Below, piece by piece: positions 12,497-63,130 of a stretch of DNA of 64,000 nt (the first letter of the stretch is position 1; each line of letters begins with the position of its first letter). The stretch is from positions 38,979 through 102,978 of the forward strand of contig JAPJBO010000820.1 of assembly GCA_030068145.1 (NCBI GenBank), read 5' to 3'. The notes under the pieces are model-generated. The model had not been told where the DNA came from and did not search any database. It saw nothing but the letters and a program-made list of their open reading frames with translations. Both the position numbers and the translations under genes were made by a program. The stretch comes from Diplonema papillatum (taxonomy: Eukaryota; Euglenozoa; Diplonemea; Diplonemida; Diplonemidae).

Positions 12497-12568
12497 TTCC
12501 CCGGCCGGGAATTGAACCCGGGTCACCCGCGTGACAGGCGGGTATACTGACCTCTATACTACCGAGGA
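12497..12568 (-). tRNA. tRNA-Asp (GTC)
   Basis: Read on the minus strand, this 72-nt sequence folds as a full cloverleaf. The acceptor stem TCCTCGG/CCGGGGA has 7 bp with one wobble. The anticodon arm CCCGC-CTGTCAC-GCGGG carries anticodon GTC, and the T-arm CCGGG-TTCAATT-CCCGG is perfect. There is no intron. A run of seven T lies just downstream (minus-strand AATTTTTTTCACC), as expected for a Pol III terminator. It is nested in the FBF1-like intron, next to satellite DNA and a poly(A)-ended repeat. Confidence 0.92.
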
Positions 12569-29099: not shown

Positions 29100-29442
29100 T
29101 GATGATGGTCCGCCTTATGTGTCCGTGGCTTAAAGGACCGAAACACGGCGCAGACGGGACCAGTGCGGTGTTGAGCACATACCCGCACATATCCATTCCA
29201 AGCACGTTCTTGCAATCCCACCCACACCCCCATTTTTCCCCTTTCTTTTTATTTACTTTTTCCCGCCCGATGTCGCTGATGACTAACGGACCGCCGGACC
29301 CGTCCCAACGGGGGTGCTTATGGAAGTTGCAATGAAGGCTTAGACCGGTACGGGCTACATGGCAACCCCTGCTCAATAGTGCTCGCCTGCCTTGATGGCA
29401 CTTGCACCTTAAAGAACTCAATGCTCAACATGTAGAATCGCT
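29100..29442 (+). repeat. 3' end of a third Penelope-like element (inverted orientation)
   Basis: GATGACTAACGGACCG, CCCGTCCCAACGGG and GAAGGCTTAGACCGGTACGG with GCTACATGGCAA match the 3' flank of the element at 56981-61476 (56530-56960), but in plus orientation. The coding part of this copy is not present. It abuts a LINE remnant. Confidence 0.65.
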
Positions 29443-31010: not shown

Positions 31011-31980
31011 TTTTTGTTAGGGGGGTTGTGGGTTGTGGTCGGATGGCTGTGATGAATGTAGATGAGTTGAAGTGAGCGAGTTCGTTTGACGAGCTGAAGG
31101 TACAGAAGCTACAGCAAAGTACGTTGAAGTATGTTACTGTTTTGAGGGCATTGTCTCGTGTGGGTTTGTGAATCGTGCTCGGTTCCTAGAAGGAGCACGG
31201 GTCGATGAGCAGTCTGGTTTATATGGAGAGGGCTTTCACTTGTCGGGGGGGCATGGGTGTGGTTCGTTTGGTTGTGGATGCGGTTGTGGTACTCAATTCA
31301 AAGCTCATTCGAACGACGTTCTCGTCGCAACTTCAGAAGACAAGGCCCCTCGTTTCGAAGTCACGAAAAGGTTCAACGCAGGCCGGACCCAGCAGCGCCT
31401 CCGGCGCCTCCAGCCCCACACTGGCCCCGCCTGCGGTGTGGGACTGCAGGCGCCCGGGGCACCCCGGCCAGCCCCACACTGCTGGACCAGCCAGCCCCAG
31501 AGCCCTCACACTGCCTCCAGCGCACCACCCCCCAGTGCTGATGCTAAGGCCCCTAAACTCGGCATCGTTGTCAGCCGGACGGCAACGAGGGGTGGGTGGG
31601 TACCCACTCGGCACCGGGGGGTCTGGGAAATACCCCAAAAACAGCCCCCAAAACGACCCACCCCCCCCCCACCCAACCCTTGAAAGTAGTGCCCCGTGGC
31701 GGTTGGTTACGAACCACAATCCCCCCTTTTTTTAAAAAACGAATGAAGGAAGGAAAAAACATGAAACCAAGTTGTGCTCGCACCGGAACAGGACTCCAAA
31801 GGACCCACTGATGAGCTCTGACTTTGGATTGGTCTGCGTTCAAGAGCGAAACATGAGACGAAGAACGAGGTGCACACACAGGGGATTAGTTTCTAGCGTT
31901 TATTGTGGTTTAGAGGTTCGGTGTTTTAGGGTCTCCGGTTGACCATTGAGGCTGTGAGGCGGGTGTTATGTGGGTAGTAG
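31011..31980. other. No gene recognised
   Basis: The region has GC-rich and C-run sequence (31640-31670) and a T-run at 31725. Plus-strand frames near 31168-31735 overlap in three frames and are proline-rich; I do not support any. At 31890 the motif TAGCGTTTATTGTGGTTTAGAGGTTCG repeats a stretch at 17381-17405 downstream of the FBF1-like donor. Confidence 0.35.
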
Positions 31981-32288
31981 GTATGCTTAAATACGGCTAG
32001 CCATGTTTGTAAGTGTTGCGACCGACACCAAGAAGAAATTCGCTTTGAATTTAGTCTTGGGCCCCCCACGCGCATGCATGTTGAGCAGGGGTTGCCATGC
32101 AGCTCGTATCGGTCTGTAATATGCGTTCTTACTTCCTTTGGGTTGAGGAGGACGTGCGGTGGGAGGGTCGGGTAGTAGAAAGAGAAGGTGAAGGGCTAAA
32201 AAAAAAATATTTCTTTTTGCGTAAGTGGCGACTGCTTGTTGTCCTCCGCAGTTAAGGTACTCTGAATACACTCTGGCATCGTGGCTGG
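31981..32288 (-). other. 3' untranslated region of Penelope-like element 1
   Basis: TTGCGACCGACACCA, GGGCCCCCCACG and ATGTTGAGCAGGG-TTGCCATG match 56540-56640 downstream of the second Penelope-like element in the same relation to the ORF. This defines a shared 3' UTR for the family. Confidence 0.65.
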
Positions 32289-35200: not shown

Positions 35201-35339
35201 TTTTGCAGCAGTATCCGAAGTCGTGAGTTGTTTTGTCGATGGGGAGGATCACCAGCTGTTCCTTGATGGCTGCGAGCTCTGCTGTAGCTTTCGCGTCGAG
35301 TTTCTCGTCGTCTCCCTCGTAGCTCGCCGGGTGAAGCAC
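32289..35339 (-). CDS. Penelope-like RT fused to a USP-type deubiquitinase (element 1)
   Basis: One uninterrupted ORF of 1016 codons. The RT holds LVILPIDKTTHDFG (29-42), LYGTIKLHK (95-103), FVDMY (A, Asp198), GIPMGGNASSDIANLF (B, 286-301) and RFIDDF (C, 330-335), the Penelope pattern. After a hydrophobic stretch (524-540) comes a C19 protease: Cys box NTCYLQAVL (Cys564), GQQHDFEEAM (637-646), zinc pairs CAKC (684) and CEC (727), His box HAGRDNAGHYTVHV (His796). Two C-terminal CxxC-H-C fingers follow (927-954, 979-1004). It starts just before RT motif 1, so the GIY-YIG region of element 2 is missing (5' truncation). All catalytic residues are present. Confidence 0.85.
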   Translation of the reverse strand: MLHPASYEGDDEKLDAKATAELAAIKEQLVILPIDKTTHDFGYCCKTQYIHALRQQLEASETYEQQNLTKSQVESEHRRMMADLDLPFHKGLPHLYGTIKLHKAEPSFRWIAGVTADKKVKQTRRETPKATLTNAHLELSGILKGVMRALKKKDGINFRQTGIKRVWFTEGPDDVTLHIKQNLTRLRYKIPTTHDFVDMYTKLSQEKIIEEVCAAIEEAFEFEEAEGNPNLTRGAKQKGKKTFAFTRQTSDKTRGYTKEQIKELLTMIINNSFIAQGDNVYRQVDGIPMGGNASSDIANLFCYRIEKAYIDKLVEEGKIEEAKAHAHTLRFIDDFLNWGTTPPPQHLYHMRYKNTTTAHDDVVFLGVRIRVERPDPPHAPHIRLSIQPKNYGTRYTHELSTAPKSQASGIFKGALIRAIRQTNHWQDLRVEIQRSVYSMIERGHNPRILYAPWNAWLTEEFANLPRLLNQLKPFLGFSIARHKAGKQRIDEPEYAGKHKPANFIPLDLASEPSSRNSQPLQPPRPLTVAERVTSIVAPITVAAAIAAFAANRVTTRTRNPKTTMRQTLSAVNTCYLQAVLNVISATNLAEQISKYVTCAAHRTGECTLAAYDWTQRIRTPDTVVRLHQNLKHPFEAGQQHDFEEAMRVVLASIVDENAEHTCCQPGESDNFDAIRHWYSTTTRCAKCKHNNTNGHWNDMAVIAPVASTVQGCLDFHCAPHKPDTYRCECGTSNKTTMQHGISRIQGSLVLRITRNQHTRENRQAVAADQTLLVPNQAQPLKLRAVVAHAGRDNAGHYTVHVLNDTPYNDARWTHFDNANVTHSANRGYTDQSTNVLFYTFDPTEPVHEPVPCHLDDDAMTNSTPHAALQAPTRTGNETAQRSSQSTTVVPSSDKSSGTATPTQQILEEMRGLEPTPGHTPDTEALQCPNCHTRTTKTGTAIKGIHGLSIHLRFCKKKLRRTPPRHSTTPASSAGKREICPYCHSDGQTPNKPQFTSLRHHKPWCKTKHRKPGATTR

Positions 35340-36605: not shown

Positions 36606-39216
36606 TCACTTCGACCCGGTTCCTCGACGAGTAGGCTGGTGCTGCGGCGTTTTGCAGTGTCTTTTGATGAGAACGCACAACGACACGTCGTCGAGTGCGT
36701 CCGCAGGGTCCAACAACCTCCGAAGCTCGTCGACAAACGAGGTGCTGGGAACGTCGTTGTTTTTGATGAAAGCCTGCGCCCCATTGGACTCGCATCCGCT
36801 CTCCGAGAGGAACTTCGCGATGACGTCGCCGACCGTGGGCGACGGGTCCTTTTGGGCAATCTGCTGCAGTTGGTACATCCACTCCTGCTCCTCCACGACA
36901 GTGCTGCCTTTCAACTCGTTGATGGTGACGGTGTTGTTGTGTGTTTTGATCGAGTCTACAGGCGCAAAATCGTACCCCTGCAACCGTGCCACCTCGAGGT
37001 TGACCACCGTGACGCTCCTCTTATGATGCCTGGCAAGCGCTGCAGCAGATTCGACGTGTTGGAACGCTTGTTCGATTCCCTGCCCGAAAATCGCAAACCC
37101 CCTTGTGTGCTTGTTTCCGATGTTCCCCGAGCTCACCTTGATCGACACGCACGCCAGCGCCAAGTTCTTCTTGACCGAGTGCATAAGTTCCAATGCTGCA
37201 TGCGCAGCCTTGTCTGACGACGTTCTCACCGGGACTGCATTTCCAGCAACGCCCCAACTGACCACAAGTTCCCCGGGCTTCGTCGTGTTGATGGCGTGGA
37301 GCACTCCGTATCCGATAGACGCTTCCACCACTGATAGAACTGCCTCGAACGTTCCAGGAGACATGTCCTTGCCGCGCTCGGTCAGGAGGCTGATGATGAG
37401 GATCGCGCCCCTCTGTTGTTTGATGGCGCCGACGCTGATTTGGGTTGCCGACGGGCCCTGCTTTTGCTTGGCGACGGTGAGGGCTCTGGAGGATCGATCC
37501 GTGTATCGAGAAGAAGCCCTCGACGTTCTAGAGTCGTTTTTGCTGATGAGCGTCGTGGTGTCGTTTGTCTCGGAGAGAACATCGTCCTCCGCATCCCCGT
37601 CGTTGAACAGGGTTTTCGGCATGAATGATTTGTATTCGATCAGCATGGCGCACATGGCTTGGAATCCCATGATCAAAGAACCGAGTTCGGTCAGTCTACT
37701 GGTCTTGGTCAAATCCATCTCATCCATTCGCATGGCACGCACGTCTTCCATGTCGTTTGCGAGAGAGATCAACGGGAGGGTGATGAACGTGGCAAGGAAC
37801 ACCAATACGAACAACGCTGCCACGGACATCATTGCGTTGACGTTCACAGCCCGGTACAGCGATTTGTTCGCCTCTTCGAAGATGACCTCTTCCGGGACGA
37901 TGTTCACGATCAAATAGCTCAGCTCGTACCGCTTCCTGTTTCGCCCCCACCTCCGAACTTCCGCGCGAGCCGTTTCAAAGTTGATCATCACCGGTTCTCC
38001 GTTAATCGTCGTAGAGAAGATATCACTGGTCATGACGAATCCCTCGGCGAGGTTTTCACCGATGATCCCCATAGCCACGCGGGTCCAGCTGCTGATCTTC
38101 GGCGAGTTCATGTCGTGCAGGTACGCCTTTTCTTCCTGCTTGTTCTTGTCCGAAGATACGACGACCCTCAGCAGATCTCGATCGATCAACAACACCAACG
38201 AACGCGCGTCGATAGCCATGCTTGGCATGTGCGAGACGAAGTTTGCCTTGACGTAGCTTCGAATCTGCGACATAGACGCGTTTGAGTCTTGTGCTTCTGT
38301 GATCTGTGCCATAGCTTCGGTGTAGAGATGAAGTTGGGTAACTTTGACGGTTTCGAGTTGGACACGGTTCCCCAAGTCCTTTGATATGTCCCGGAGAGCT
38401 GTGTTCCACAAGTTTGTGCCGACGACTTGAATCACGCAAAACAGCAATAGCACAGACAGCCCGAGGAACGCAGAGATAGGTAGCGAGCACCCGCCTGTCT
38501 TCCGCAGCCCACTGATCTTGTTGTACATGAACATGAACAGAAGAATGAACAGGACCCCGCAAACCACGCAAATCACCACCAGCTGAATCCTTTCACTCGT
38601 CCACGTCTTCAACACGCCATCGTCGCCGATGGCGTCGAAATTGCCGAGCAAAGTGTTGAGATCCTTTTCCATGCTCCTCGCAACTTCGGCGGGGGTTCCA
38701 CCTTGCAAGAACAACAGGTCCCACCCTGTCTTGATCGCGTTCAGGCATCTGTTCACCAACGGTCCGCATCCGCCTGCCGGTCGAGCGGCAAGGTCACGGT
38801 CCCAGAACTCCGGGAAGCTCGACATACTCTGGCAGATGCTAGAAGTACGCGTAGCTGAGCAGTAGTTGTTCCACAGTGTCTCGCTCGTCATGGTGTCGGT
38901 GTGCGTGGGTTCCTGTGTTGAGCTGAACGGCAGCATGACCTGCGCGTCGACCAGCGCTTGAATGAACTCGAAAGCGAGGTCTTTATTCCGGGTGTGATTT
39001 GTGATCCCAGCCTCCCATGCGTCGCTCACTCCTCTGCCCGCAGACCCCGGCGTCGCTGCCAGCCGAATGTCGACTCCGTTCCTCGACAGGTAGCCCGGAA
39101 GCCGCGAGGCTCTGGTAACCCATTCAAACCCTACCGCCACGTCTCCTCTCCGCATCATCCACGTCATGCTCGAGGGGTCTTCGCCGAAGCATTCCGGGTT
39201 CACCAGCTGTTCCTTC
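36606..39216 (-). CDS. Receptor with solute-binding ectodomain and degenerate cyclase domain, exon 2
   Basis: The exon begins after AG at 39218-39217 and completes the codon split at 42471. In order: the second half of an extracellular solute-binding domain (WMMRRGDVAVGFEWV ... EFIQALVDAQVM), a membrane segment (IQLVVICVVCGVLFILLFMF), a second (FLGLSVLLLFCVIQVV), a Cache-like sensor region, a third (SVAALFVLVFLATFITLPLI), a HAMP-like linker, and a region with the outline of class III nucleotidyl cyclases (GNIGNKHTRGFAIFGQGIEQ). The metal-binding aspartates and the Asn/Arg of the active site are not visible, so it is probably a pseudo-cyclase. With exon 1 the protein is about 1,124 residues. 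Stop at 36606. Confidence 0.7.
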
Positions 39217-39474
39217 CTGTTTTCATTGTTTTTGTGTTTACGGCGATATTCGCTCTTGCCTGTGACGGCGTTCATTGAGTTGTTTGTATTAGTTCACTTA
39301 CAGTAGCTGCTGATCTGCTGCGATGGTCTGCGGTTTCCAAAGCGGAGCGATGGCGGAGCTGCGGGCGGGGGAGGCTGATTATGATCCATGGATTGCGCGA
39401 ATTTCTGATGAATAAGTTTTTTTTCCTTCGGACAGTGAATGTCGGCGCTCAGATATCATTTCTTCTGTCATCTG

Positions 39475-43861: not shown

Positions 43862-44146
43862 GTTTTTTTTTTTTTTTTTCTCGCGCCGTCTCTATATGAA
43901 AAGAAGTGCGTAGTTTTGCTTTATTCTTTTACTTGTTTGTTGTCGACAACATATTGTGGTTGAGGTGTCATTCAGATGAAGATCTAAAGCCGCCCACGTC
44001 AAATTTTGTTAAGCAGCGGCTGCCAAAACTTGCCGTGACACCTATTTGATGCAAGGTAAAGGAGAAAGTTGGAAGTAATTGGGAAGTTGATATTTTGTTG
44101 GGACCCTCGTAGCTCGCTGGGTCAGGCGCGCCAGGTAAGTGCTGGG

Positions 44147-45289
44147 CTAGTTCCTGTCTGGGCTCGGACTGTGAAGTCCTCTTGGGTTTCCGTCGCAAGT
44201 TCTCTCGTGTATGCTTACACCGAACCAGTTTGCGAATGGGTTTCCGGACCTTGTTGTCGCTATACCACAGAAGCGACACTTCGGCACGGTGGCTTGTGGG
44301 TCAGGAAGTTGTGTTTCTGGGATGTTCGCGGGAGGGCTTGCCTGCGAATCTTGCGTTTGTGACGGCGTCTGTCGTGGCAGCTCTGGTGTAACAGGTCGAG
44401 CTGGTGGCTGTTCCCTTGAGTCCAGTCGAACGGAAGGCTGTTCTGGTGACTCTGGTTGAGCGGCCAGATGTTCTGGTTGTTCTTCTGATGGTTGGGGGAC
44501 AACACGCGGGCACGCCTGTTCCTCTGTACTTGTCGCTGAAGCAGAAGAGTTGCGGGGAGGGTCTGCGTTTGGGTTGTGGAATCTTGCGAACAGGCTTTCG
44601 GAGTACGGTCCCTGTATTGGGATGTAATGCACTTGAGCGATATAACCTAGCATTACGGGGGTCCCTGACTCACCTACTGTCTGCGTGTGAAACCTGTTTC
44701 TCTCGTCAATGGAAAACAGGTGTATTTTCACGTTTTTGAGCTTTGTGTAGGCCACGAGTGAAAGGTAGTCGCCCCAGGTGTAGTTCTCGCGGAGTTTTGC
44801 AATGTACTGGGAGAGGTCAAGGTCGGGTAGGAAGATCCTCAAGTCACTCTTGTGCGATTCCCAGTAGTCTGCTAGCTCGTTGCGGAGGGCCATCTGGTCT
44901 CCCTGTTTGTAAGACAAGCTCAGGAACAGGCAGTTTCCATTTCCAGCTACGGAACGCGGCTGCAATCCTATTGTCCTCAGTCTGGACATGAGTCTCAGCT
45001 CTCGTTTGAGAAGCCTGTCACGTGAGTTGAGGTTGTCACTGTCTTTAGGGGGTTTCGGTGGTTCGGCATTGGGGAAGAAGGTTGGAATGTGGGTTTCTTT
45101 AGAGAGTGAGGATACCACTTCGCTTACTTTCTTTGTTCTCCGACGCCCTACTCTTTTTTGTTCTTCTACGATTGGGAAGCCTGCGTAGTAAGATACAACG
45201 CAATTTTGAGAATTCGTAGTCCCGCCTCGTTCGCCCTCTAGGTGTCCCGCTCGCAAAGATAAAACCAAAGCTCTCGATAGTGTCCACAT
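44147..45289 (-). CDS. OTU-type cysteine protease ORF of the LINE (ORF3)
   Basis: A 380-codon ORF starting 33 bp after the ORF2 stop. Residues about 105-225 form an OTU domain: VAGNGNCLFLSLS (Cys120), LRNELADYW, TWGDYLSLVAYTKL and YIAQVHYIPI (His221). The Asp usually three residues before the Cys is Asn117, so the triad may use another acid. A Pro/Glu/Ser-rich linker leads to a finger CRFCGIAT...WFGVSIHERTC (about 337-360). OTU proteases remove ubiquitin; in a retroelement this could protect element proteins from degradation (inference). LINE copy B lacks this segment. Confidence 0.75.
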   Translation of the reverse strand: MWTLSRALVLSLRAGHLEGERGGTTNSQNCVVSYYAGFPIVEEQKRVGRRRTKKVSEVVSSLSKETHIPTFFPNAEPPKPPKDSDNLNSRDRLLKRELRLMSRLRTIGLQPRSVAGNGNCLFLSLSYKQGDQMALRNELADYWESHKSDLRIFLPDLDLSQYIAKLRENYTWGDYLSLVAYTKLKNVKIHLFSIDERNRFHTQTVGESGTPVMLGYIAQVHYIPIQGPYSESLFARFHNPNADPPRNSSASATSTEEQACPRVVPQPSEEQPEHLAAQPESPEQPSVRLDSREQPPARPVTPELPRQTPSQTQDSQASPPANIPETQLPDPQATVPKCRFCGIATTRSGNPFANWFGVSIHERTCDGNPRGLHSPSPDRN

Positions 45290-45321: not shown

Positions 45322-48300
45322 TTAGACCGAATACGTCGTGATCAGCGTCGACCATCGGGCGGCGAGCGGGTCATCGCACAGGGCTTTCACGCGTCTCGCG
45401 ACGTGTAGTACCGCCGGCCCGTGCTTCAGCGCAAAGTCTTCAAGGAGCTCTTTTACCACCGGCGGGCGACGCGTTGTGGCGCTTCGGATGTCCGACACTT
45501 CGTTGTGTGTGTCGTCGTCGGCAAGCAGCACGTGTTCTGCGGTCGCCAGCTCGCAACACCGTCTACACTGCACGCGGGTTCCCTTCGGCAGTATCGACCT
45601 TCTCACGATCGCGAGCAGGAGGTCCACCGCCCCTGGGACCGTCTCCAGCGCCCTGAGGGTGCTTCCTCTCGTCGTCTTCCCCGTCGCCATCTGCCGAATC
45701 GCCCTCGTCGCGGTCTTCGCTCGTCCGTACTGGCACAATCGCCGCACGTACTCGGCTGGTCCCTTCTCCCCGTTTCTCCAGTGGAGGTGTTCCACATCCA
45801 ACGCCGGCGTTCCCTCACGTAGAGTGATCGACGCCGCCTCATCCGCCCGGTTGATGTGCTGGTTTTCCGCGTGACCCTTACTCCACCGCAGGCACTCCGC
45901 GTACTCGCCAAGGCACTCTGCCACCGGGTCTCCGATACGTCTCCGCTGCACTCGTTGTATTGCAGCCTGACTGTCGCAGTACCAGACCAGCTGGTTGGCC
46001 AGCACTCCGCAAATCCTCAACGCCGTTGCCAGGAGCAGCATCGCCGCCAATTCAGCGTCGGTACTCGATGTAACCGTCCCTCGCAGGACGGCGCCGATCT
46101 TCTTCGCGCCGATCGATACACCTACTGACCCACGTGCCTCTTCTTCTACGAAACCGCCGTCGCTCGCCACTACGGTGTTCCGTGTTCCTCTGCACTGTGA
46201 ATTCACCAGCTTCACGGTCTGAGCAAGAAGGCTTGCCCCTTCTGCTGTCTCTCGAGGGGCCCTGCGGCGGAAGCCTTTCGTCGGGAGGTCGTCCCCCACT
46301 CCGTCCCGCTTAAACGCCAAATACGCCCTCGTTTGCTGCATTGAGGCATAGGACTCGACGGTTTGGCACGCGTACCCATCCTTGCAGCCAGCGAATTCTT
46401 TAATGCCCCGGCTGTAGCGGTGCTTCGGGAGTAGGCTCGACTGTGCTGCCGTCAGCTTCGGTGCTCGGGGGTCGAAACAGGTCGACAGACTGTGCATCGA
46501 GAGGGTGGGGAGCACATGTGTCGTGTAGAACGCGCACCTTCGCCGGGTAGAACGGTACAGGTGCGAGTTCGTGTAGTCCACGAGTCTCGCTACCCTCTCC
46601 AGCTTTTTTGCGCCATTTTCACATCCTCCGGCGTGTCTCTTCGCGTGTATGCACACGCCCAGCAGCACGGCCTTGTCCACGGTCTCACGGACGGGGTTCG
46701 AACTCCACTCAAAGGAGCTTTTCGCCACGACCACGACTTTCTTCTCCTCTAGCTCCAGCCCCTTAGAATTCGCCCAATTCTGCACTCTTCCGAAAGTGTA
46801 CGGGAGTCGAGCTCTTGTCGTGCGAGCGACCAAATCGTCGACGTACATTCGCGCGTCTGCTTCCGCCGGGGGCTCACAGGTGTACACGATGAAAAGGAGC
46901 ACGCTTAGCGGCGAACCCTGCAAGACCCCGCGGTTGAGGGCAACGGGCGCCGTGAAACCTTCGTGATGCGCAATCGTCACCGCTTGGTTCTCGATAACCC
47001 TTGCTATTGTTATTGCCCACTCGGGGCCTAACCTGCGTCCAACTGTCTCTATTAGCCTTCCGTGGGGAATCGAGTCGAAAGCGGCCATCACGTCCACAAG
47101 CAACAGCAGGTGCTCGTCGTCCTCGTTCGATGCAACGTCGGACTCCAGCCACTCCTTCGCAAACAAAGCTACCTGCGCCGCTCCGCTGCGTTGCCCGCAA
47201 CCGTACTGGAAGCCGCAGCGCTTGACGTACTCTAGGACCAAGGGTCTCATCTTCAAGTACACCGCGGTATGGAGCAACTTTGCGAAGAGGGGCATGATCG
47301 CAATCGGTCGGTACCCTCTCGGATCGGAAGCCCTCAGCATCTTCCCTTTCCAGAAGAGAAACACCCAGGCCACTCTCTGTCGCTCGGGAACTCCCTCACG
47401 GACCCATCTGCTTAGTTCGACTGACGTCGCTGCAATCGCTTCGTCTTCCATTTTCAGCAGAAACTTCGGCGAGAAGTCAGAGGTCCTCGCAGTGGGTCGA
47501 ACGGCTTTGGCGGCTTCTCTTATATCGTCGGGGGAGATGGCTATCGGGTTGGCGTTCCTTGGAAGTAGCACCGGAGGTTGCGGGACGTCGGATGCGTACT
47601 TCTTCCGGAGAAAACTCGTGAAGTCTTCCGGGTTCTCTAACAGCGGGGGCTGGTATGGTGCAGCAAGATTCGGCGATTTCCGCAGGGGGGCTAAAACGTC
47701 CAGCTTCCTCCGGATGCATCGAATTTCGGCGTTCAGCCTTCGTCTCTGCTCTACATCGGCTTCGCCCCGTGCTACCATCCTTCGGTGAAGAGCTTTCTGC
47801 AGGCGGGCGGTTTTCGTGCCGCGGGGCCGGGGTGGGGGTGCTGCCGCACTGGCGTCCAAGGCGTCTAGAAGCTCAGGAAAGGTCGCCTGGTGCAGGCTCT
47901 GGCGCGCGGCTGGGTACCCCATCGCTGGGGGCCTCCTCATGTACTTATCGAAACTGAGGGCCAGTATCGCGTGGTCACTTCCGCCGGTGAAGCGGATGAA
48001 GTCCAGGCTCCATCTTGATCTACGTGGAACGAAAGCTCTGTCCAGCGAAGAGTTTGCATTCGATCTCGAGAACGTCGTCCGTGACCGCACCAGCTCTTGT
48101 ACATGCTCTTGTCGCATCCGCCTCTCCACCTGGGGGGTCGTCCTCGGGTTGAAATCGCCGACTACTGCCAGGTCGGTCGAGCATTCTCTTGCTCGGAGCG
48201 CTATCCATTCTCCAAGTCGCTCTACGAGCACGTCGCGCTTGTGACACGGTACGTACACACTCACTACCCTCAGCGTCTCTCCCGCTATTCGAAGGTCGGC

Positions 48301-48807
48301 ACTGCACGCACCATACCCCGAGTAACATTGCGAGACCGTCACTGTGGATTGTCTTTTCACAAGAATGGCCGTTCGTGCTATGGGGCGGTCGCCGGAATAG
48401 GGGCAGACCCCTATCACAACTACCGCCCACCCGGCCCGAGCAGCGTATTCCCGGAAAACGGTGGGTTCACGGCCGATTTCGTTCACCGCCAGCAGATCGG
48501 CGGCAGGCAAGCGGGCGAAGTATCTCTCCAGACACATCTTTGCGGAGGCGTTGCACGACAGCAGCAGTATTCGTCTCTCGAGCGGTAGGAAGCCGTGGGC
48601 TCTCACGGCCGGTATGATCAAGGGGAGCACTTGTCGAGGGGCAGGGGTCGACCCCGGCGGCGCATGGTTCGCTCCTCCGGGCGGGTCGGTCAAAGGGCGG
48701 GGCTGGGAAAGGCAAGGTACTCTAGGACGTGCGAGATTGTTTGACTGCGATGGTGGAGTTCGACATGGGGTGACGGGTGCGATTCTTGCTTGAACTTGGG
48801 GTAGCAT
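45322..48807 (-). CDS. LINE ORF2: APE endonuclease, reverse transcriptase, RNase H, zinc cluster
   Basis: An intact 1161-codon ORF. APE-type endonuclease: LLAVNEIG, AVVGDFNPRTT, SLDRAFVPRR and GGSDHAIL. RT: RGYRPIAIMPLFAKL, LLLLVDVMAAFDSIPHG (A), NRGVLQGSPLSVLLF (B) and ARMYVDDLVA (C). RNase H: VASDGGFVEEE, TDAELAAML, WYCDSQAA and NRADEAAS, with all acidic residues present. It ends with a CRRCC...H cluster. This order fits I, Ingi or LOA-type LINEs. It copies element RNA into DNA at a nicked target. No frameshift or stop is seen, so it looks functional. Confidence 0.88.
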   Translation of the reverse strand: MLPQVQARIAPVTPCRTPPSQSNNLARPRVPCLSQPRPLTDPPGGANHAPPGSTPAPRQVLPLIIPAVRAHGFLPLERRILLLSCNASAKMCLERYFARLPAADLLAVNEIGREPTVFREYAARAGWAVVVIGVCPYSGDRPIARTAILVKRQSTVTVSQCYSGYGACSADLRIAGETLRVVSVYVPCHKRDVLVERLGEWIALRARECSTDLAVVGDFNPRTTPQVERRMRQEHVQELVRSRTTFSRSNANSSLDRAFVPRRSRWSLDFIRFTGGSDHAILALSFDKYMRRPPAMGYPAARQSLHQATFPELLDALDASAAAPPPRPRGTKTARLQKALHRRMVARGEADVEQRRRLNAEIRCIRRKLDVLAPLRKSPNLAAPYQPPLLENPEDFTSFLRKKYASDVPQPPVLLPRNANPIAISPDDIREAAKAVRPTARTSDFSPKFLLKMEDEAIAATSVELSRWVREGVPERQRVAWVFLFWKGKMLRASDPRGYRPIAIMPLFAKLLHTAVYLKMRPLVLEYVKRCGFQYGCGQRSGAAQVALFAKEWLESDVASNEDDEHLLLLVDVMAAFDSIPHGRLIETVGRRLGPEWAITIARVIENQAVTIAHHEGFTAPVALNRGVLQGSPLSVLLFIVYTCEPPAEADARMYVDDLVARTTRARLPYTFGRVQNWANSKGLELEEKKVVVVAKSSFEWSSNPVRETVDKAVLLGVCIHAKRHAGGCENGAKKLERVARLVDYTNSHLYRSTRRRCAFYTTHVLPTLSMHSLSTCFDPRAPKLTAAQSSLLPKHRYSRGIKEFAGCKDGYACQTVESYASMQQTRAYLAFKRDGVGDDLPTKGFRRRAPRETAEGASLLAQTVKLVNSQCRGTRNTVVASDGGFVEEEARGSVGVSIGAKKIGAVLRGTVTSSTDAELAAMLLLATALRICGVLANQLVWYCDSQAAIQRVQRRRIGDPVAECLGEYAECLRWSKGHAENQHINRADEAASITLREGTPALDVEHLHWRNGEKGPAEYVRRLCQYGRAKTATRAIRQMATGKTTRGSTLRALETVPGAVDLLLAIVRRSILPKGTRVQCRRCCELATAEHVLLADDDTHNEVSDIRSATTRRPPVVKELLEDFALKHGPAVLHVARRVKALCDDPLAARWSTLITTYSV

Positions 48808-55186: not shown

Positions 55187-56122
55187 TCACTTCATGCCTG
55201 CAGCAGGCGATGCGATAGCCAGGTACTTCTTCTGCGTTGCTTTGTATCGGTCAACGTCGAGGAGCTTCGCGAGAACTTCTGACGATATGGGCGGGGGCAA
55301 GGTTGTTCCCTGGGACTGCCCGCATGCGGCTTGTATGTGACTATAGGCAGCCTGCATCGCTGCCAAGAAAGGTGCGTGTCCGGTCAGGCGAAAGACGACA
55401 CCGCAAGCAGCGAGTTCTTCGTCTGAAATATTCTGCTTGCCACTCACAATCAGCGGCAGGTCAGGCCCGGCGGCCTCTTGAATGCTCGCCCACTGCGACA
55501 CGGACGGAGCACCAATGAGGTGGAACCCGTCGACCCCGGAAGTCTTGTACATCGCAAGCCGTTCACAGAGCGACTCGATCCCCTCGGCAGGAAGCGAGCT
55601 GGACCTGGCGAACACGCAGAGAGCCGGGTCGATCTCGTTCTTGCACGCCACAGCGGCCGACAGCTTCAAAAGGTGCTCCCGGGCATTCGTCAGAGCAAAG
55701 CCTCCGGCGCTGCCTTGCACGGTGGTCCCCGCACTCGCGTAGGCAGCCGGAAGAATGGTGTCCTCCAACGTGAGCCCCGACACGCCGGCGCCGGCTAGTT
55801 TTTCCAAGCTGCGCTCGACGCTGAGGGCGTTGCCAAACCCGTGGTCCGCGTCCACCAGCAGCGGGATCGAGCGCCTCCTCGTTATCCGAGCGCAGAGGTC
55901 GGCGACCTCGTCGACCGTCGCCAGCAGCAAATCCGGGGCACCGCACGTGACGTGGCTGGCGACGGACCCCGCGAGTTGCATCACGGGGCCGCCTGCCTCT
56001 TCGACCATGTGGGCACTCATGTTGTCGAAAACGGATACCGGACTTATCACTCTCCCCCTGGCGTTGAGGAGCCGCCGAAGTCGGATTCGATTCTCCGTGT
56101 GTGCGTGCAGTGCACTCCTCAT
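55187..56122 (-). CDS. Oxaloacetate decarboxylase / PEP mutase family enzyme
   Basis: A 311-codon single-exon ORF from ATG. It fits the isocitrate lyase / PEP mutase superfamily: ISPVSVFDNMSAHMVEEAGG, PLLVDADHGFGNAL (metal-binding Asp), GLTLEDTILP (catalytic Glu region), PALCVFARSSS and TGHAPFLAAMQAAY. Length and motif order match the bacterial oxaloacetate decarboxylase subgroup, which converts oxaloacetate to pyruvate and CO2 with Mg2+. The substrate could differ within the family. No intron or targeting peptide is evident. It sits alone between a LINE remnant and a Penelope-like element; the bacterial character and lack of introns suggest possible transfer. Confidence 0.8.
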   Translation of the reverse strand: MRSALHAHTENRIRLRRLLNARGRVISPVSVFDNMSAHMVEEAGGPVMQLAGSVASHVTCGAPDLLLATVDEVADLCARITRRRSIPLLVDADHGFGNALSVERSLEKLAGAGVSGLTLEDTILPAAYASAGTTVQGSAGGFALTNAREHLLKLSAAVACKNEIDPALCVFARSSSLPAEGIESLCERLAMYKTSGVDGFHLIGAPSVSQWASIQEAAGPDLPLIVSGKQNISDEELAACGVVFRLTGHAPFLAAMQAAYSHIQAACGQSQGTTLPPPISSEVLAKLLDVDRYKATQKKYLAIASPAAGMK

Positions 56123-56301
56123 TTGCGACCGGGGAAGTGGCGCGTCGGGTTCGTTTGCCTAGGGTCAAGAGCGTTGGAGAATGGTCGAAGATAAAGAGTG
56201 GTGTGGTGTCACCTGGGGGGGGGGGGGGGGTCGTTGTATAATGGTTTAGCTTGAAGGGAATTGGAAAGGTTGAAAAAGGTTTTGGGGGTCACCGTCGGTT
56301 T

Positions 56302-56405
56302 GTGTTTTGTGTTTCCGACGATCCGAATGGACGTACAGATTGGTGTCTTTCGACCTTTTGGATGCTTGTGAAGTTCAGCTTAGTGCGTGCTTGTGGGTTT
56401 TTTTT
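56302..56405 (-). repeat. Short retro-repeat, 3' end
   Basis: Matches 39640-39735 (TTTCCGACGATCC-GAATGG, TTGTGAAGTTCAG-TTAGTGC). On the minus strand it ends ATCGTCGGAAACACAAA, then A-rich sequence. It is followed by a T-run and CT-rich stretch (56398-56525). A run of 17 G lies at 56214-56230. Confidence 0.65.
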
Positions 56406-56529
56406 TTTTTTTTTTTTGGGGGGGTAATTATTTTTTCGGGGGTTCGCGTAACCCTTCTTTTCCGGAAGATAACGTTATCTTTTCTTTTCTCTCTGGCACT
56501 CTTTTTCTCTCTATCTCTCTCTTTGGCTA

Positions 56530-56960
56530 GCAAAGCGACTATTGCGACCGACACCACGACCACACCCGTATTGAATGTGATCAAGGGCCCCCCACGTTCT
56601 ACATGTTGAGCAGGGTTTGCCATGTAGCCCGTACCGGTCTAAGCCTTCATTGTAACTTCCATAAGTAACCCCGTTGGGACGGGTCCGACGGTCCGTTAGT
56701 CATCAGCGATATCGGGCGGGAAAAAGAAAACAAAAAGAAAGGGGTAAAAGGTGGGTGTGTGGGTGGATAAGCTCGTGGTAGGTTGTTCGGAAATAAGTAC
56801 AACCTCAAACTACGCCTAGCACAGGGCCAGGCGGTATATGCGTGCCTCCATCCTCTCATGTTAGTGTGCGTTCACCCGTACAGACACTTCGAGTTCTCCC
56901 GTTCGTCAGGGTAAACGGGTGCGGAGTGTAAAACAGACCAGCCAACAATCAAGAATCCGA
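56530..56960 (-). other. 3' untranslated region of Penelope-like element 2
   Basis: Shares blocks with the 3' flank of element 1 (31981-32125) and with the fragment at 29270-29440. No hammerhead-type ribozyme core with both conserved boxes was found. Confidence 0.6.
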
Positions 56961-56980
56961 TGAGGCTGAAACGACGTGGA

Positions 56981-59900
56981 TCAGAACCTCACATCCGCGA
57001 GTCGGCAACGTCTCTCATGCGCCCGGAGTCCCCTCAGACCTTGAAACTTCTGGCCATCCTTCGTAGACTCGATGGAGCAGTGTTGACATCGCAGCACCGG
57101 GGACTCCGCCAACTGCTCAAGCAACTGACCATGCGGTGTCAGACATTGGGAGTTCGGTAAGGGCGGGCAGGATGGTGAACTACCAAGGGGGTAGAGTAAG
57201 TCAGGTGATCCTTCCGACTGTCGGCCCATCAAATTACCAGCTGAATTTGGGGGTGCAGACGAGTCGGGCAGTCGATCTTGAGTAGGAAGCACCATGGAGG
57301 GTGACGGGGCACGGACTGTCATGTTGTGGGCACTCCGGGAGATCCGGACAAAAGCCGCGAGGTAAACGTCACCCCACGGAATGTCGTCGACGAAAGTAAC
57401 TCGCAGGTCGTCGAAGAGGATCCATCCCGTATCTTGTGCAACGTATGTGACGAAATGTCCACTACCCGTATCCTCCCCCATGTGCACCACGACGGCTGCG
57501 AGGCGTAGCAGATGGTCCGGTGGTCCGAAGAAAGGGGGCAATTCCACGTCATTCTGGCGCCGGGCACCGTTTCTCGTGTAGATGCCAAATTGCATCAGAA
57601 CACAGTCAGCTGTCAGACGGAGGTCCATATTCTCAACCACCGTGCCTACAGCCTTGCAGTCGCACACTCTCTCCGGATTTATGAACTCGTGCACGTAGAG
57701 AGAATCTTCCAGTCTCCTCCCGCAAGGGATTTGCAGACATTGTACCGCCTGACTGTCGGAAGAAGCGCGTCCACATGCATTACACCGTGCCGAGTTGGTC
57801 CAGTGGTTCTCCAGGCATGCTAGGAAGAGCTGGTAGCCCGGGCAGGGGGTCCCTGTTTCGTCCGGCCCCAGCGTCGTATTGGTCGCGTTGAGGATCGCTA
57901 CCAAAGCTTCGTGTGCATCGTGTTGTTGTGCATCGCAGAAGTTTGCGAACATGCTCAGGATGGCTTCGACACCCATTCTCCGGCAATCCCGGCTGCGCTG
58001 GTCACCACTGTTGCGAGAGCTTGCCAGCATAGCAAAGTACGCTAGGAAGTCCCCGAGAAACCCACGGCAGTTGGAGAGGTCTTGCGCAAGGCTCCAGTAC
58101 ATCTCTCTGATCGGTTCAACCCGTAGCAGGAGCTGCAGCACCGTACCAAGGAAGCACGTGTTACCCAGATTCGGGAGGCCGGTGGGGCCAAACAGCGTCG
58201 GGTCATGTCTCACGGAAGGCGGGCGCGTACAGACAATTGATCGGCAGCACGTGGATGGAGGGGGAACTGTCGGAATCGGCTTGTGGGTGTTCGAGCAGCG
58301 TCGCTTTGAAACTTGTTGTTCGTCCTCCTCAGCCTTTCGCTTGTGGCCTTTCCGTGTGGACTCACGGTGGACGGTCGAATCAGTCTGTTGGGTCGGTGCT
58401 TCGGTGGGCGGTGATCGGGGGGAGTCATCTTCAGCTTCTGGAGCAGGTTGGGGGCGGCCCTTGTACTTCACGAAGGGTTTTTCCGCCAGTAGGCGCTCGA
58501 TCGCACGGTCCGTGGCAGCCGGCTCTGGCAACGATAGTGTGCGTTCCACCTCGTGTATGAGCCAAAAGAAATGCGCACGCACCTTCCCGCAATGTTCGCC
58601 AAATTTGGCCTCCGGGTAGGTATCCAGCAGCCATTTGCGGAATCCACTCTTTAGAACGCTCTTACGGTAACCACGCCGCATGAGTTTCAGAACCGCGTTG
58701 TTCATTTCGGTCTTGAAATCATATATGTTGTTGGCGATCCTACCGTTGCGAACGAGGGCCCCAATGAGGATGCTCGAACCGAAGTTTGATGGGGCCGTCG
58801 AGAGGACTGACGTGTACGCGAGGGGTCGGTACGGGTAGGCTTTCGCCTTGTCCAAGACCGACAGTCGCATGTACCTCCTTCCAGACGCGTCGGAAACCTC
58901 GTGCCGTATCCGTATGCCAAGGAAAGTCGAATCCCCCACGCACGAGTTCGTCTGCTTGTACCTCATGCTGTAGACGGACTCGGGTGGAGGTTTCGTCCCG
59001 AAACAAAGCAGATCATCGATAAAACGGCGCGTCATGCTGAGGAGTGTAGCCCGTCGGATGTCTCTTTCAGCCAGGAGTCTCATCATGTACCTCTTCTCCT
59101 TTGCGTAGCAGAAGAGATTGGCAATGTCTGGAGAGGCGTTAGCGCCCATCGGGATACCCAGTATTTGCCGCATGAGGATACCGTTCACCAGTACGTACGT
59201 GTTCGCCAGGCAGAAAGCGAGGAGGGCCTTGAGGTCGTGTGCAGAATACGCTGCCTGCTGCGAGCTCAGATCCGTCACCAGCCTAAACGCAAAACAACGT
59301 TTCTTCTTCTGCGGCCCATGCTGGCTCTTCGGTCGTACGAGGACCAGTTCATCAACCCGTACGCCGAGCCGCTCGGCCTCCGCTGCAAAGGCCTCGTCGA
59401 TGGTGCCAGCAATTTCCTCCAGCAGCTCCTCGAGTCCCAGTTGGTCGTACATGGTCGTAAAATCAAACGTACCAGCGACCAGGCCCGAGAGCTCGTCAAC
59501 ATGCGTCTTCAGGAAGAAGGCGGTGTCGTCACTGGACTCCGTGATCCAGAAAAATCTAAACCCGGTCGCATTGAACCGGTCACTGTCTTCCCTTCGCAGG
59601 ATCTCCATGACTGATTTCAACAGGCCCGTTAGATCTAGCTGCGCATCCGTCGTCGATGAAAATGTTGCATCAGGGCGGCGTGTTTCGCGTTCAGGAAAAG
59701 TCTCCTCCGGGCCCACAGTGTTTTTGCGGGAGACCCCGGCAATGTACCGCATGGTTATCACCTCCTTGTGCAGTTTCAAGGTGCCATAAAGGTACGGGAG
59801 GGTATTCGTGGGGCTCAGCCCTTTTTGCTCCAGGTACGTCTTGTGGTCTGCCACGACTTCTTCCGGTGTCTTCTCGCTCGGGGCGTAGTTCACGCTGTGG

Positions 59901-60214
59901 TTAACCTTCGTGTACAGATCCTGGTTGTAGAATCTTCGACATACGAACCCGAAGTCGTGAGAACTTTTGTCGACCGGGAGAATCACGAGGTCCTTGTGCA
60001 GCTCTCGCAGGCGCCGACGCGACGCAGTTGTTACCTCCGGCTCGGCACCAATTCGCGTCACACCGACGGTCGACATTATTTTCTCCCGCAATAGTGTGGC
60101 GAAACTAGGCGGGGAGTCACTAAAGTACCCTTCGACGAACACAGTCACCGCTTTATCAACCTCAGTACAAATAGCTTCGTCACCACCATCCGGGCGGAAC
60201 TTGCGACCCTTGTC
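56981..60214 (-). CDS. Penelope-like element 2: RT plus USP deubiquitinase part
   Basis: The open frame (nominally from 60535) becomes meaningful at LLFDKGRKFRP near 60225. RT: LVILPVDKSSHDFGF, YLYGTLKLHK, FDFTTMYDQL (A), GIPMGANASPDIANLF (B), RFIDDLLCFG (C) and STFLGIRI. A basic NLS-like run (KGHKRK...SKRR) follows, then a complete C19 USP domain: GLPNLGNTCFLGTVLQ (catalytic Cys), DAQQHDAHEAL, CNAC and CDC zinc pairs, MGEDTGSGHFVTYVAQ (catalytic His) and WILFDDLRVTFV. It ends in finger CQHCSIES...GLRGLRAHERRC. It is out of frame with the GIY-YIG part only because of a 5-bp tandem duplication (60215-60224). Confidence 0.85.
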   Translation of the reverse strand, partial: DKGRKFRPDGGDEAICTEVDKAVTVFVEGYFSDSPPSFATLLREKIMSTVGVTRIGAEPEVTTASRRRLRELHKDLVILPVDKSSHDFGFVCRRFYNQDLYTKVNHSVNYAPSEKTPEEVVADHKTYLEQKGLSPTNTLPYLYGTLKLHKEVITMRYIAGVSRKNTVGPEETFPERETRRPDATFSSTTDAQLDLTGLLKSVMEILRREDSDRFNATGFRFFWITESSDDTAFFLKTHVDELSGLVAGTFDFTTMYDQLGLEELLEEIAGTIDEAFAAEAERLGVRVDELVLVRPKSQHGPQKKKRCFAFRLVTDLSSQQAAYSAHDLKALLAFCLANTYVLVNGILMRQILGIPMGANASPDIANLFCYAKEKRYMMRLLAERDIRRATLLSMTRRFIDDLLCFGTKPPPESVYSMRYKQTNSCVGDSTFLGIRIRHEVSDASGRRYMRLSVLDKAKAYPYRPLAYTSVLSTAPSNFGSSILIGALVRNGRIANNIYDFKTEMNNAVLKLMRRGYRKSVLKSGFRKWLLDTYPEAKFGEHCGKVRAHFFWLIHEVERTLSLPEPAATDRAIERLLAEKPFVKYKGRPQPAPEAEDDSPRSPPTEAPTQQTDSTVHRESTRKGHKRKAEEDEQQVSKRRCSNTHKPIPTVPPPSTCCRSIVCTRPPSVRHDPTLFGPTGLPNLGNTCFLGTVLQLLLRVEPIREMYWSLAQDLSNCRGFLGDFLAYFAMLASSRNSGDQRSRDCRRMGVEAILSMFANFCDAQQHDAHEALVAILNATNTTLGPDETGTPCPGYQLFLACLENHWTNSARCNACGRASSDSQAVQCLQIPCGRRLEDSLYVHEFINPERVCDCKAVGTVVENMDLRLTADCVLMQFGIYTRNGARRQNDVELPPFFGPPDHLLRLAAVVVHMGEDTGSGHFVTYVAQDTGWILFDDLRVTFVDDIPWGDVYLAAFVRISRSAHNMTVRAPSPSMVLPTQDRLPDSSAPPNSAGNLMGRQSEGSPDLLYPLGSSPSCPPLPNSQCLTPHGQLLEQLAESPVLRCQHCSIESTKDGQKFQGLRGLRAHERRCRLADVRF

Positions 60215-61476
60215 GAAGAGAAGAGTAGTTCGCTGCAGGTGTCGAGGAGGTGTGCCTGCCCACACGCATGGCCCTGAACGTGGTATCCTTGCAGCAGATA
60301 CTTTTGACACGGGCAGTCCTCGGGCGGAGGGGCCGGCTCCGGGGTCGTCTGTCTTGAAACCTCCGTGAAGTTGGAAAGGAGGACCCCAAGGGGGGGGTTG
60401 AGTGACGTAGAGACCCTCGTGTTGATGAATTCCGTGGGGTCGGCGAGGAGGGCACGGAGTTGGGCATCGTGGCGAAAGATGGCGGCAAGTTTGCGCTCGT
60501 CCAGCAGCTTGCTGACCTGCTGGATGCAGAACCACGGGGTCCGTGCCGCACTTTTCTTCTTCTTCGCGAGGTGGTTTATTTCACCAAGCCGTGCCGTGAG
60601 CAACCCGTCCAGGATTCCTACCTTCGGGTGTTGTAGGTGCTCGATCATGAAACGCCGAATCCACGTCCGAACCCTGTACACCCGGCTCTTCATCCACGGG
60701 TTCAAGTCGTACCCCCGTAGTGCGTCCTCCTCAAGTCCGAAGAGGTGCTGCAGCTGCCTGCGGATACCGAAGAATCTCCCCCGTCCCTGGTCGATCCGTA
60801 TCTGCTCGCCGTCCACGTGAATCCACGGTTCCCCACGCTCGCGTGAAGCTCCTTGGGCGTTCCTTTCGTTGCCCGGTGCCTTTGAGAACGATGGTGCAGC
60901 GCGGGGCTTTTTTCTCCGTCTGTTCAAGTCGCTGGCTGTCCTCACCGTGTTGAACATCGGTTGCAGCATCGCGATGAACGCCATCTCTATCGGCTCCGAC
61001 ACCCTGTCGAACGAACTCCCGTCGGAGTAAAACGCGCCGGGGATGTCGTATAGCACGAACGCGTACGGCGGGGAAGGGAGGTTCTGCAGGTGACGCTTGA
61101 ACTGGTCCTGTTTGCTGTTCCTGCCAGACCAGTGTTTGGCGACCCTTTCCTGCATTGTCTTGCCCGTCTTGCCAACATATAACAGGTTGGCATGCGAGTC
61201 CACGAGTCCGTAGATGAGACCCGAAGCCTTGTAATTGCTCGGGTTCGCCGGCTGCTGGAGCTTGAGCGTCGCGTATGTGTGTGCGAGCTTCCTCCCGTAT
61301 CTTCTTAGGAACCGGCTCGTGAACTCCACACCTTGCTCCTTCCATTTCGACCAGTCGATCTGTGTCGTCTTCTCCGTCTTCGTACGAATACAGTCGGTTT
61401 GGAAGAAGGGTGCGAGGAATGGTTTCGCAAACTCCGGGCGCCGCCGCATATCCTCGTCGGCAGGCGGTACTCGCAT
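60215..61476 (-). CDS. Penelope-like element 2: N-terminal GIY-YIG endonuclease part
   Basis: Begins at ATG 61476; the open frame runs to 60145. Residues about 85-180 form a GIY-YIG nuclease: ASGLIYGLVD, NLLYVGKTGK, MQERVAKHWS (catalytic Arg) and EPIEMAFIAMLQPMFN (catalytic Glu, Asn). Then come a helical region and a CPCQKYLLQGYHVQGHACG cluster, which in Penelope-like proteins precedes the KFR motif. An N-terminal rather than C-terminal GIY-YIG domain places it with the permuted (Chlamys/Naiad-like) group. The nuclease would nick the target to prime reverse transcription. Confidence 0.85.
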
Positions 61477-62221
61477 CCTGACACGTTCCAGTGGGGTTTT
61501 GTGTCGGGTCGGGTCGCTGCAAAACCGGACACTGGGGAGGTTCGTGGGGGTCGGGCGTTGGGTTGTAGTGTTGTAGAGGGGTCGTGAAGGAAGGTCTATT
61601 AAGGAAGGTCAATGATGGACAAAAAGTCGGAAGATGGACGAAGAAGAATTGACAGCACGTAACGTAACGGAAGTAGTGATAGGGAGGGGCGAGTGGACGG
61701 GGTGGCTTGTTCGTCTGGGCAGTCGGTGGTGCTATTCACGGGGGGTAGGGAATACACGCTTCTGAACTACTGCTACTAGTTTTTTTGTCAGGCTCAGGGC
61801 CCGGCGCGTCTTTTGTCGGTCTTTTGGGGTTCAGTTGTCGTACAATGGAACAGTCCCGGTTGGTAGTAACGAAACCGTACGGGGGCAGGATGGAGTACAC
61901 CTAAACTCTGCCCGGTCTCGATGCCGTGGTCGGTGGTACAGCGGGGCGAAGTCGATTTGGGTGGACCGTCTCCCTACCTGTACCGGTTGCTTCCTTTTCT
62001 CGTCGGTTGTGCACAAGGCGGTTTTTTTTCGGACTCTGTACGTCCCTCGCGTCAGAGCCCTCAGAAAGCGAGCGGGTTCTTTTTTTGAGAGGTCACCCCG
62101 CGGCGTTTGGGGTGACTGGGTGGGTACGGCCGCTCCGTCCACCTAGGTCCCGGAATGAACCGGGTTCCCCTGTCGTTGATGGGAGAAGGACACAACAAAC
62201 ATAGCACTCACATTCCGTCCA
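61477..62221. other. 5' flank of Penelope-like element 2; no gene recognised
   Basis: Presumably includes the 5' UTR of the element (61477-61600). Direct GAAGGAAGGTC-ATTAAGGAAGGTC repeats lie near 61590. No other feature is supported. Confidence 0.4.
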
Positions 62222-63130
62222 GGGGAACAGTCTAAATCATCCGCTCTATGGTTTTCCGCGATATCGTCGCGCTTCGCGTCTTCGGCTCGTGTCCGTGGAT
62301 GGGTCTTTGGCCTGGGACGGAGCCGCCGACTGGGTATCGGGCATAGTCGTAGTTGGGGGGCTGAGAAGCAGAGGTGATAGGGCAGGTAGTCGGCAGCGGC
62401 ATGTAAACAGGGGCACGTAGTGCAGGGAGAGGAGGGCGGTGCGCCGCGCTGGCACTAATGTGTATGTCAGTCAGCAGGCGGCCGTGGCATTTAATATCAA
62501 CGGGCAGCCCGGTTGGCGGTCTACTCGGTGATGCACGTCGAAGGAGTTAGACCGCCATCCGGGGGCCGGGGTATAGAGCATCGTTCCGAATAGGGGGGTT
62601 GTCTTGTGTCAGGTGGCGCAGCAGCTTGTTTGGTGGAAAAGCGTCGTGTCCGCAGGCTCGCCAGTCAGCAGGTGTTTGTGTCGTCCAGCCGTGTACCATG
62701 GTTCGGGTAAGCGGCCCCCCGACGGTGCATCGCGGGTACGGGCCGGATACTAAGAGGTACAGGTGTAGCACGCGGCTTTGAACGGTGGCGTCTTGTGTCG
62801 AGTTCGGTGGTGTGGTCGCCTGGAAGAGTACAGTGTCGAAAATGCACGAACCATTGAACATGAACTCACATCTCGTCCGGGAGACTGTTCTTATCCGCCT
62901 AACTGTCTTCCGTGCTATCGTCGCGCTGAGTGTTCCCGGCTCGCGTCCGTGCGTGGGTCGCTGGTCTTAATGGAGCAACGGACTGTACAGGGAATAGGCG
63001 TCGCCGGGAGCTGAGGAGTCGAGTAAGTGATACGGTAGACAGTCGGCAGCAGCGTGTTGCGTCGAGTAAACAAGGCCGCATAGTACAGGGGAGGGGGGGT
63101 CAGGGTGTTTATTAAGATTTGGCCTAACCC
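62222..63130. repeat. Diverged direct duplication of about 250-300 bp
   Basis: 62222-62455 and about 62860-63095 share TCTTCCGyGCTATCGTCGCG, CCGGCTCGyGTCCGTGCGTGGGTC-like text, GTAGTCGGCAGC and GTAAACA-GG. The copies differ a lot. A T-runless spacer with unrelated short frames lies between them. Confidence 0.55.

Follow-up and report, generated by a model that had tools for sequence, protein, structure and literature searches.

We analysed a window of 64,000 nucleotides from the genome of Diplonema papillatum (contig JAPJBO010000820.1, positions 38,979 to 102,978), which appears to be a free-living marine flagellate, and found in it a copy of a retroelement, here called element A. This copy is likely to be a damaged one that derives from an autonomous Penelope-type retrotransposon which has moved recently, with a single predicted protein that combines a GIY-YIG nuclease domain, a reverse transcriptase (RT), a deubiquitinase of the ubiquitin-specific protease type (USP, peptidase family C19) and a C-terminal C2HC finger, the function of the deubiquitinase being ubiquitin cleavage; the substrate is left out of this estimate. 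No report of a retroelement protein carrying a USP turned up in the open-access literature searched. The parts of element A in the window, in window coordinates, are as follows:

56218-63097, minus strand: copy of element A, with gaps, delimited by similarity to intact copies (blastn of locus L023 against the window); 63097-61657 is the 5' untranslated region (UTR) side, followed by the coding part and then by the 3' UTR side to 56218.
60223-61476, minus strand: frame 1, residues 1-418 of the intact protein (tblastn, 96% identity), with GIY-YIG at about 61090-61221.
56984-60220, minus strand: frame 2, residues 420-1499 of the intact protein with RT, USP and finger (tblastn, 91% identity).
58544-59986, minus strand: RT core (VILPVDK ... 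PYLYGTLKLHK ... DFTTMY ... GIPMGANASPDIANL ... RFIDD ... FLGIRI), ends approximate, from an alignment with relatives and a structure model.
57383-58183, minus strand: USP (C19 deubiquitinase) domain, from PF00443 and the aligned catalytic Cys, His and Asp and zinc Cys.
57005-57088, minus strand: C-terminal C2HC finger, from a pattern search; a like finger occurs in relatives with USP, with OTU and with no deubiquitinase.
29218-29376, plus strand: isolated fragment resembling the element A 3' UTR (98.7% to L023 7719-7877).

The similarity of the window to L023 runs through blocks at 61489-56391 (92%), 62595-61657 (90%), 63097-62850 (81%) and 56308-56218 (98%). Frame 1 stays open down to 60145 (open reading frame (ORF) 60145-61476, minus strand), and ORF 56981-60535 on the same strand contains RT, USP and finger. 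Combined, the two ORFs cover residues 1-1499 of the intact relative, with the frame switching between residues 418 and 420. Because the coding region is split over two frames here, we consider the window copy damaged; other loci of the genome carry intact copies in a single frame. An earlier note on this DNA had described one element from 56981 to 61476. Its domains do match a single intact relative, but the window copy lies in two frames and is longer, extending from 56218 to 63097.

Pfam identified the GIY-YIG domain in ORF 60145-61476 (PF01541, 24.9 bits, cut-off 22.6) and the USP in ORF 56981-60535 (PF00443, 71 bits, E 1.6e-19, residues 785-1051), and the finger pattern C-x2-C-x19-H-x3-C lies close to the C-terminus of the latter; the domains named in the earlier note are present on the minus strand. 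A profile search of the PDB, using an alignment of five members of which one ends before the USP, gave the same C19 assignment: the profile spans most of the domain in many solved USPs, with 84 sequences matched, and the best among the 60 matches listed was USP36 (chain 8bs3, E 2.4e-17, profile positions 588-860). Pfam and the PDB profile both place the C-terminal region in C19, so the reading of this region as a C19 protease stands against the profile condition that the earlier note had set for its refutation. RT and USP share one uninterrupted frame in relatives. The RT-like motifs are visible when element A is aligned with its relatives, and we take them to resemble those of Penelope RTs. 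An AlphaFold2 model of the RT built on 17 sequences was fairly confident (predicted local distance difference test score (pLDDT) 77.8, predicted template modelling score (pTM) 0.74). Pfam RVT_1 gave no report for ORF 56981-60535 at E 0.1 and was under the cut-off wherever it was reported in family members.

The same architecture was found well beyond this copy. UCH (PF00443) scored well above the Pfam cut-off in element A and in a second window element, B, as well as in the related proteins P0005, P0008, L037, P0015 and P0017. GIY-YIG and UCH reach their cut-offs within one ORF in three subfamilies (P0005, P0008 and L037), although in P0005 the GIY-YIG match only just does so (22.6 bits against 22.6). 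P0005, the protein of locus L004, has GIY-YIG at residues 86-129 and RT at about 470-980, and P0008 is 67% identical to it. Further GIY-YIG, RT and USP architectures, for which the earlier note had proposed a search, are therefore present both in relatives and in the diverged subfamilies P0008 and L037.

The genome (271,365,524 bases in 2910 contigs) was searched with the RT-USP frame, yielding 41 rows (39 scored of 1410 candidates). An uninterrupted stop-to-stop frame of 1585 amino acids (aa), 91% identical to the query, is shared by 14 of these, and 5 of the 41 have a 1590-aa frame with 85% identity. Sixteen of the 41 loci, picked for long frames, were fetched, and all 16 encode GIY-YIG through finger in a single frame, which from ATG amounts to 1499 aa in 13 loci and 1497 aa in 3; the full-length copies that the earlier note had recommended looking for thus exist in the same genome. 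Over the aligned parts, copies of the main subfamily reach 99.3-99.97% identity to L024 or L026. With 41 matches in the genome and the complete single-frame architecture in 16/16 fetched loci, the arrangement, judged from sequence, is neither a one-off fusion nor an assembly artefact. A host deubiquitinase gene with a nearby retroelement insertion, or an assembly chimera, would agree with the database name 'putative ubiquitin carboxyl-terminal hydrolase 16' for such proteins, but the many near-identical single-frame copies lie on different contigs, have their 3' end in common and are ragged at the 5' end, and we regard this explanation as vanishingly improbable.

A genome search with PF00443 scored 149 of 935 candidates and gave signal in 0/14 control genomes. 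A count by eye gave two score groups, one of 54 rows (85.3-85.9 bits) and one of 41 rows (76.5 bits), which make up 95/149. The two rows of the first group that were read equal the P0008 USP at 99.6-100%, the second group includes known element A copies, and the score is the sole basis for placing the remaining rows of both groups. The elements are joined by at least one higher-scoring row, L050; weaker USPs like that of element B are not in this list. As 95 of the 149 rows fall into two element-linked score groups, most UCH matches scored in this genome are probably retroelement copies. Annotation can mislabel such elements as host deubiquitinase genes. In the nr database, the element proteins P0006, P0008 and P0017 are named Diplonema papillatum ubiquitin carboxyl-terminal hydrolase 16 or 26, and two gene models with element-like parts, P0009 and P0014, which are possibly fused models, are named ribosomal RNA-processing protein 12 and magnesium/proton exchanger. 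The accessible part of the Diplonema papillatum genome paper gives about 2500 retroelement-type gene models (PMC10161547), and the words 'Penelope' and 'ubiquitin' do not occur in its main text. Among viral contigs, 0 relatives were found.

Oriented copies share a common 3' end and differ at their 5' ends, which start near 413, 641, 720, 848, 910, 1684, 2038, 2283 and 2784, and at 272 in L023 and L025, where the tail of an upstream copy abuts; the arrangement in these two loci may stem from one event. Two copies stand in a row on C230, and a tandem arrangement was seen in 2/12 copies examined. The 3' junctions carry a run of C of at least 5 in 12/12 copies and at least 9 in 10/12, compared with background runs of at least 6 in 1.5% and at least 9 in 0.1% of 2959 flank windows; the element may own part of the run, so the shortest runs are uninformative. 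The flank of L026 includes the right-hand flank of L033 with the C-run present and the element absent, although it is not a clean empty site because the left-hand flanks differ. L028 lies between direct repeats, estimated by eye at roughly 55-60 bases. The C-run junctions, the common 3' end and the ragged 5' ends fit target-primed reverse transcription at oligo-C targets, which would be the mechanism.

By its anatomy, rather than by a reference RT tree, element A would be a Penelope-type retrotransposon. Permuted Penelope elements of the Chlamys/Naiad type carry GIY-YIG N-terminal to the RT, and P0005 has the same arrangement. Craig et al. (2021) reportedly described the Chlamys and Naiad groups as Penelope-like elements with an N-terminal GIY-YIG. 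Element A resembles them in having GIY-YIG ahead of RT in one frame, and differs from them by the deubiquitinase and C2HC finger after the RT. Head-to-tail copies and 5' truncation are shared with Penelope elements generally. GIY-YIG lies at or above the Pfam cut-off in the frame of the RT in P0005, P0008, L037 and L038, and the accessible text of one study states that GIY-YIG is not found in retroelement subclasses other than Penelope-like elements (PMC12910113). Tandem or partial-tandem copies of Penelope-like elements form pseudo-long terminal repeats, according to the portion available of another (PMC11167929), and the abutting tails of L023 and L025 and the C230 pair, perhaps products of one event, display this trait.

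The window holds further members of the same clade:

31890-35339, minus strand: element B (lineage B), divergent, with RT, USP (about 32826-33629; PF00443 60.3 bits) and two fingers.
44020-45209, minus strand: OTU element, 5'-truncated, with an OTU domain (about 44657-44944; PF02338 38.2 bits) replacing the USP, and a like finger.

Element B is 27% identical to the element A ORF (310 bits), and no GIY-YIG match was found upstream of it within the window. Its further copies are 99.6-99.9% identical over the parts compared; the upstream stretch to 36840 also occurs in L010 and L014, while L011 and L020 end at 35313. A protein search with element B scored 0 of 8000, and this search was insensitive, as the relative P0017 surfaced in another one. 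In the B relative L037, a single frame of 2210 aa begins with a long repetitive stretch and continues through GIY-YIG, RT and USP to two fingers. That frame length recurs in 13/45 scored places of the L037-type search, and one of the 13 was read. The N-terminal extension of L037, in the frame from 768, consists of repeated 'TYEPQPYLP'-like units ahead of GIY-YIG.

The OTU copy in the window is identical over 1190 bases to L038, which encodes GIY-YIG (27 bits), RT, OTU and finger in a single 1544-aa frame, with the OTU (PF02338, 36.2 bits, cut-off 23.3) located between RT and finger. The OTU protein had 116 matches in the genome (108 scored of 3012 candidates); six rows at 99-100% have the 1544-aa frame, one of which was read, and additional OTU groups lie near 67% and near 40%, and most members of the second group have one internal stop. 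We had also considered a fusion of the OTU with a long interspersed nuclear element (LINE), in which the OTU ORF 44147-45289 was read as part of the neighbouring LINE, and this was ruled out by the L038 frame. The LINE-type ORF itself (45322-48807, minus strand, 1161 aa) matches RVT_1 at 48.5 bits and has an endonuclease/exonuclease match of 16 bits, under the cut-off. Among other relatives, P0015 (46% identical over about half of the query) has RT, five fingers and then USP; P0017, labelled Diplonema papillatum, has RT and USP without such a finger; and P0019, which its 2.5-kb contig may have truncated, has RT and finger without USP.

The catalytic Cys with its preceding Asn, the His and the two zinc Cys pairs are kept in 8/8 USPs, four of which are close relatives, and the third catalytic residue is Asp or Asn in 7/8, P0015 being unclear. 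The invariant columns of a separate five-row alignment agree on these catalytic and zinc residues. Ratios of nonsynonymous to synonymous substitution rates (dN/dS, NG86) between element A and the 85% subfamily were 0.21 for the USP, 0.06 for the RT, 0.28 and 0.60 for the linkers and 0.13 for the finger; between element A and the window copy they were 0.18, 0.05, 0.35 and 0.48, and 0.28, respectively. The comparison of B with L037 gave 0.32, a weak figure because dS is saturated. These ratios indicate purifying selection on the USP. Host DNA can be captured by Penelope elements, as the available part of PMC3846280 describes, and the relative P0013 does without a deubiquitinase, so the domain could be a captured host exon that rides along with no function. 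This passenger reading is very unlikely: the USP is constrained relative to the linkers (dN/dS 0.18-0.21 against an overall 0.28-0.62), catalytic residues are kept across lineages about 27% identical, and an OTU occupies the same slot.

An RT tree without a distant outgroup split P0017, the OTU element, B and L037 from A, the 85% subfamily (A85), P0008, P0013, P0015 and P0019 at 100/100, with an uncertain root and a poorly resolved branching order inside the first group. USP occurs on both sides of this split, OTU in the P0017/B/L037 group, and the deubiquitinase-less P0013 in the A group. USP carriers as a single RT clade were rejected with p 0.0042 (8 rows against P0013, P0019 and P0028) and p about 1e-40 (7 rows against the OTU element, P0013 and P0019), values that are soft, as the groups were named after the hits had been seen, branches are long and P0019 is possibly incomplete. 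P0028 (RT; GIY-YIG 17.6 bits, under the cut-off) is a very distant outgroup; some RT trees were built without P0027, those with the OTU element also without the window row, and the second of these without P0028. A scenario in which USPs were captured several times was dropped: a first USP tree had rejected one clade of element USPs, and this fell once L050, counted there as host, was seen to group with the elements at 100/100. The best full USP tree places all 8 element USPs on one side with support 38/84. One clade of element USPs had p 0.24-0.31 in three approximately unbiased tests, so with L050 corrected the USP tree is compatible with one capture and with several. The reduced USP tree was built without P0015, L037 and L049, and both USP trees with host rows without the window row. 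Two histories come into question, loss and replacement of an ancestral USP or repeated gain of deubiquitinases, and both lead to a modular slot. Our broader proposal, to which we give slightly less than an even chance, is that one clade has a slot between RT and finger that holds a USP, an OTU or nothing, and that retrotransposition regularly involves ubiquitin removal, a host-facing step whose driving force is conflict with a host ubiquitin pathway.

The presence of an OTU in one member where others of the clade have a USP separates function from fold, and suggests that selection acts on ubiquitin cleavage itself. Since the slot holds either of two unrelated folds of deubiquitinase, the catalytic residues are retained and selection is purifying, ubiquitin cleavage is likely to be the function of the domain. 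That a related element has an unrelated enzyme of like presumed activity at the same place further suggests that stripping ubiquitin aids the spread of the element. The GIY-YIG domain would nick the target, the RT would copy the RNA at the oligo-C/G sequence by target-primed reverse transcription, and the cis-tethered deubiquitinase would strip ubiquitin that otherwise limits the reaction. We rank ubiquitin on the element's own protein or ribonucleoprotein first as substrate, at about an even chance. The earlier note had likewise proposed that the protease might shield the RT or ribonucleoprotein from turnover or, as an alternative, might counter host silencing. This raises a general and testable question, namely whether hosts restrict reverse transcriptase complexes through ubiquitin and whether mobile elements fight back.

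Ranked second, and clearly less likely, is that the substrates are chromatin or repair proteins where the element inserts, such as ubiquitinated histones, and that the deubiquitinase thereby opens the target or steers repair. The domain shares its protein with an endonuclease, an RT and a finger with possible nucleic-acid binding, and the solved USPs that match the greater part of it include USP36 and chain 6tbm_Q, presumably the SAGA subunit Ubp8, which acts on H2B. Such profile similarity is uninformative on substrate, however, as USP8, USP7 and USP15 match too. For the OTU and Ulp1 domains of transposases, a link to DNA repair is proposed in the accessible part of Bao et al. 2010 (PMC2836005). 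In third place, the USP or OTU might be a processing protease that cuts the element's polyprotein, in the manner of retroviral proteases on Gag-Pol; linkers flank the domain on both sides and the single-frame proteins are large (1499-2210 aa). We consider this improbable, because the two folds are best known for cleaving ubiquitin and Pfam at E up to 1 found no ubiquitin-like domain in P0005, P0008, L037 or L038.

Several observations weigh against the interpretation of element A as a Penelope-type element with ubiquitin cleavage as a function. The USP is constrained, yet evolves several times faster than the RT. P0013 (42% identical), a prediction from a long contig, combines RT and finger without a deubiquitinase, which means that members of the clade can do without the domain. 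The model of the USP domain, which the earlier note had suggested making, was unusable (pLDDT 40.7). An RT profile run against the PDB gave 4 matches at E 0.5 or worse, none of them an RT; the Penelope membership accordingly rests on anatomy. No hammerhead ribozyme was found at the Rfam gathering threshold in the window, L023, L033, L034 or L037. To our knowledge this motif is not universal among Penelope-like elements, and we did not treat its absence as disqualifying.

The general idea of a ubiquitin-type protease joined to a transposition enzyme is not new. The accessible parts of PMC2836005 and PMC6431247 describe Ginger1 DNA transposons with C-terminal OTU or Ulp1 domains, Helentrons with OTU, and a Trichomonas protein with transposase and peptidase C19. 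They share with the present family a transposition enzyme coupled to a protease of the ubiquitin or SUMO type, which varies from family to family, and differ in being DNA transposons without an RT-endonuclease protein. The earlier note knew of no described family with a USP; this agrees with our literature search as far as retroelements go, whereas transposase precedents are in print (PMC2836005, in the portion available). Terminons/Athena of rotifers are likewise Penelope-type elements with accessory enzymes; those named in the accessible text are exonuclease, esterase/lipase, GIY-YIG-like, Rep and structural ORFs, with no deubiquitinase among them, and the elements are endonuclease-deficient (PMC6431247). 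The USP of element A matches USP36, USP8 and USP7 by profile over most of the domain and in catalytic and zinc residues, and differs from them as a part, about 290 aa long, of a retroelement protein.

Other features of the window include an 889-aa ORF at 36606-39275 (minus strand) with no Pfam match above the cut-off, a tRNA gene at 12497-12568 (minus strand) and, directly beyond the 3' end of element A, a 311-aa ORF at 55187-56122 (minus strand) that Pfam assigns to the phosphoenolpyruvate phosphomutase family.

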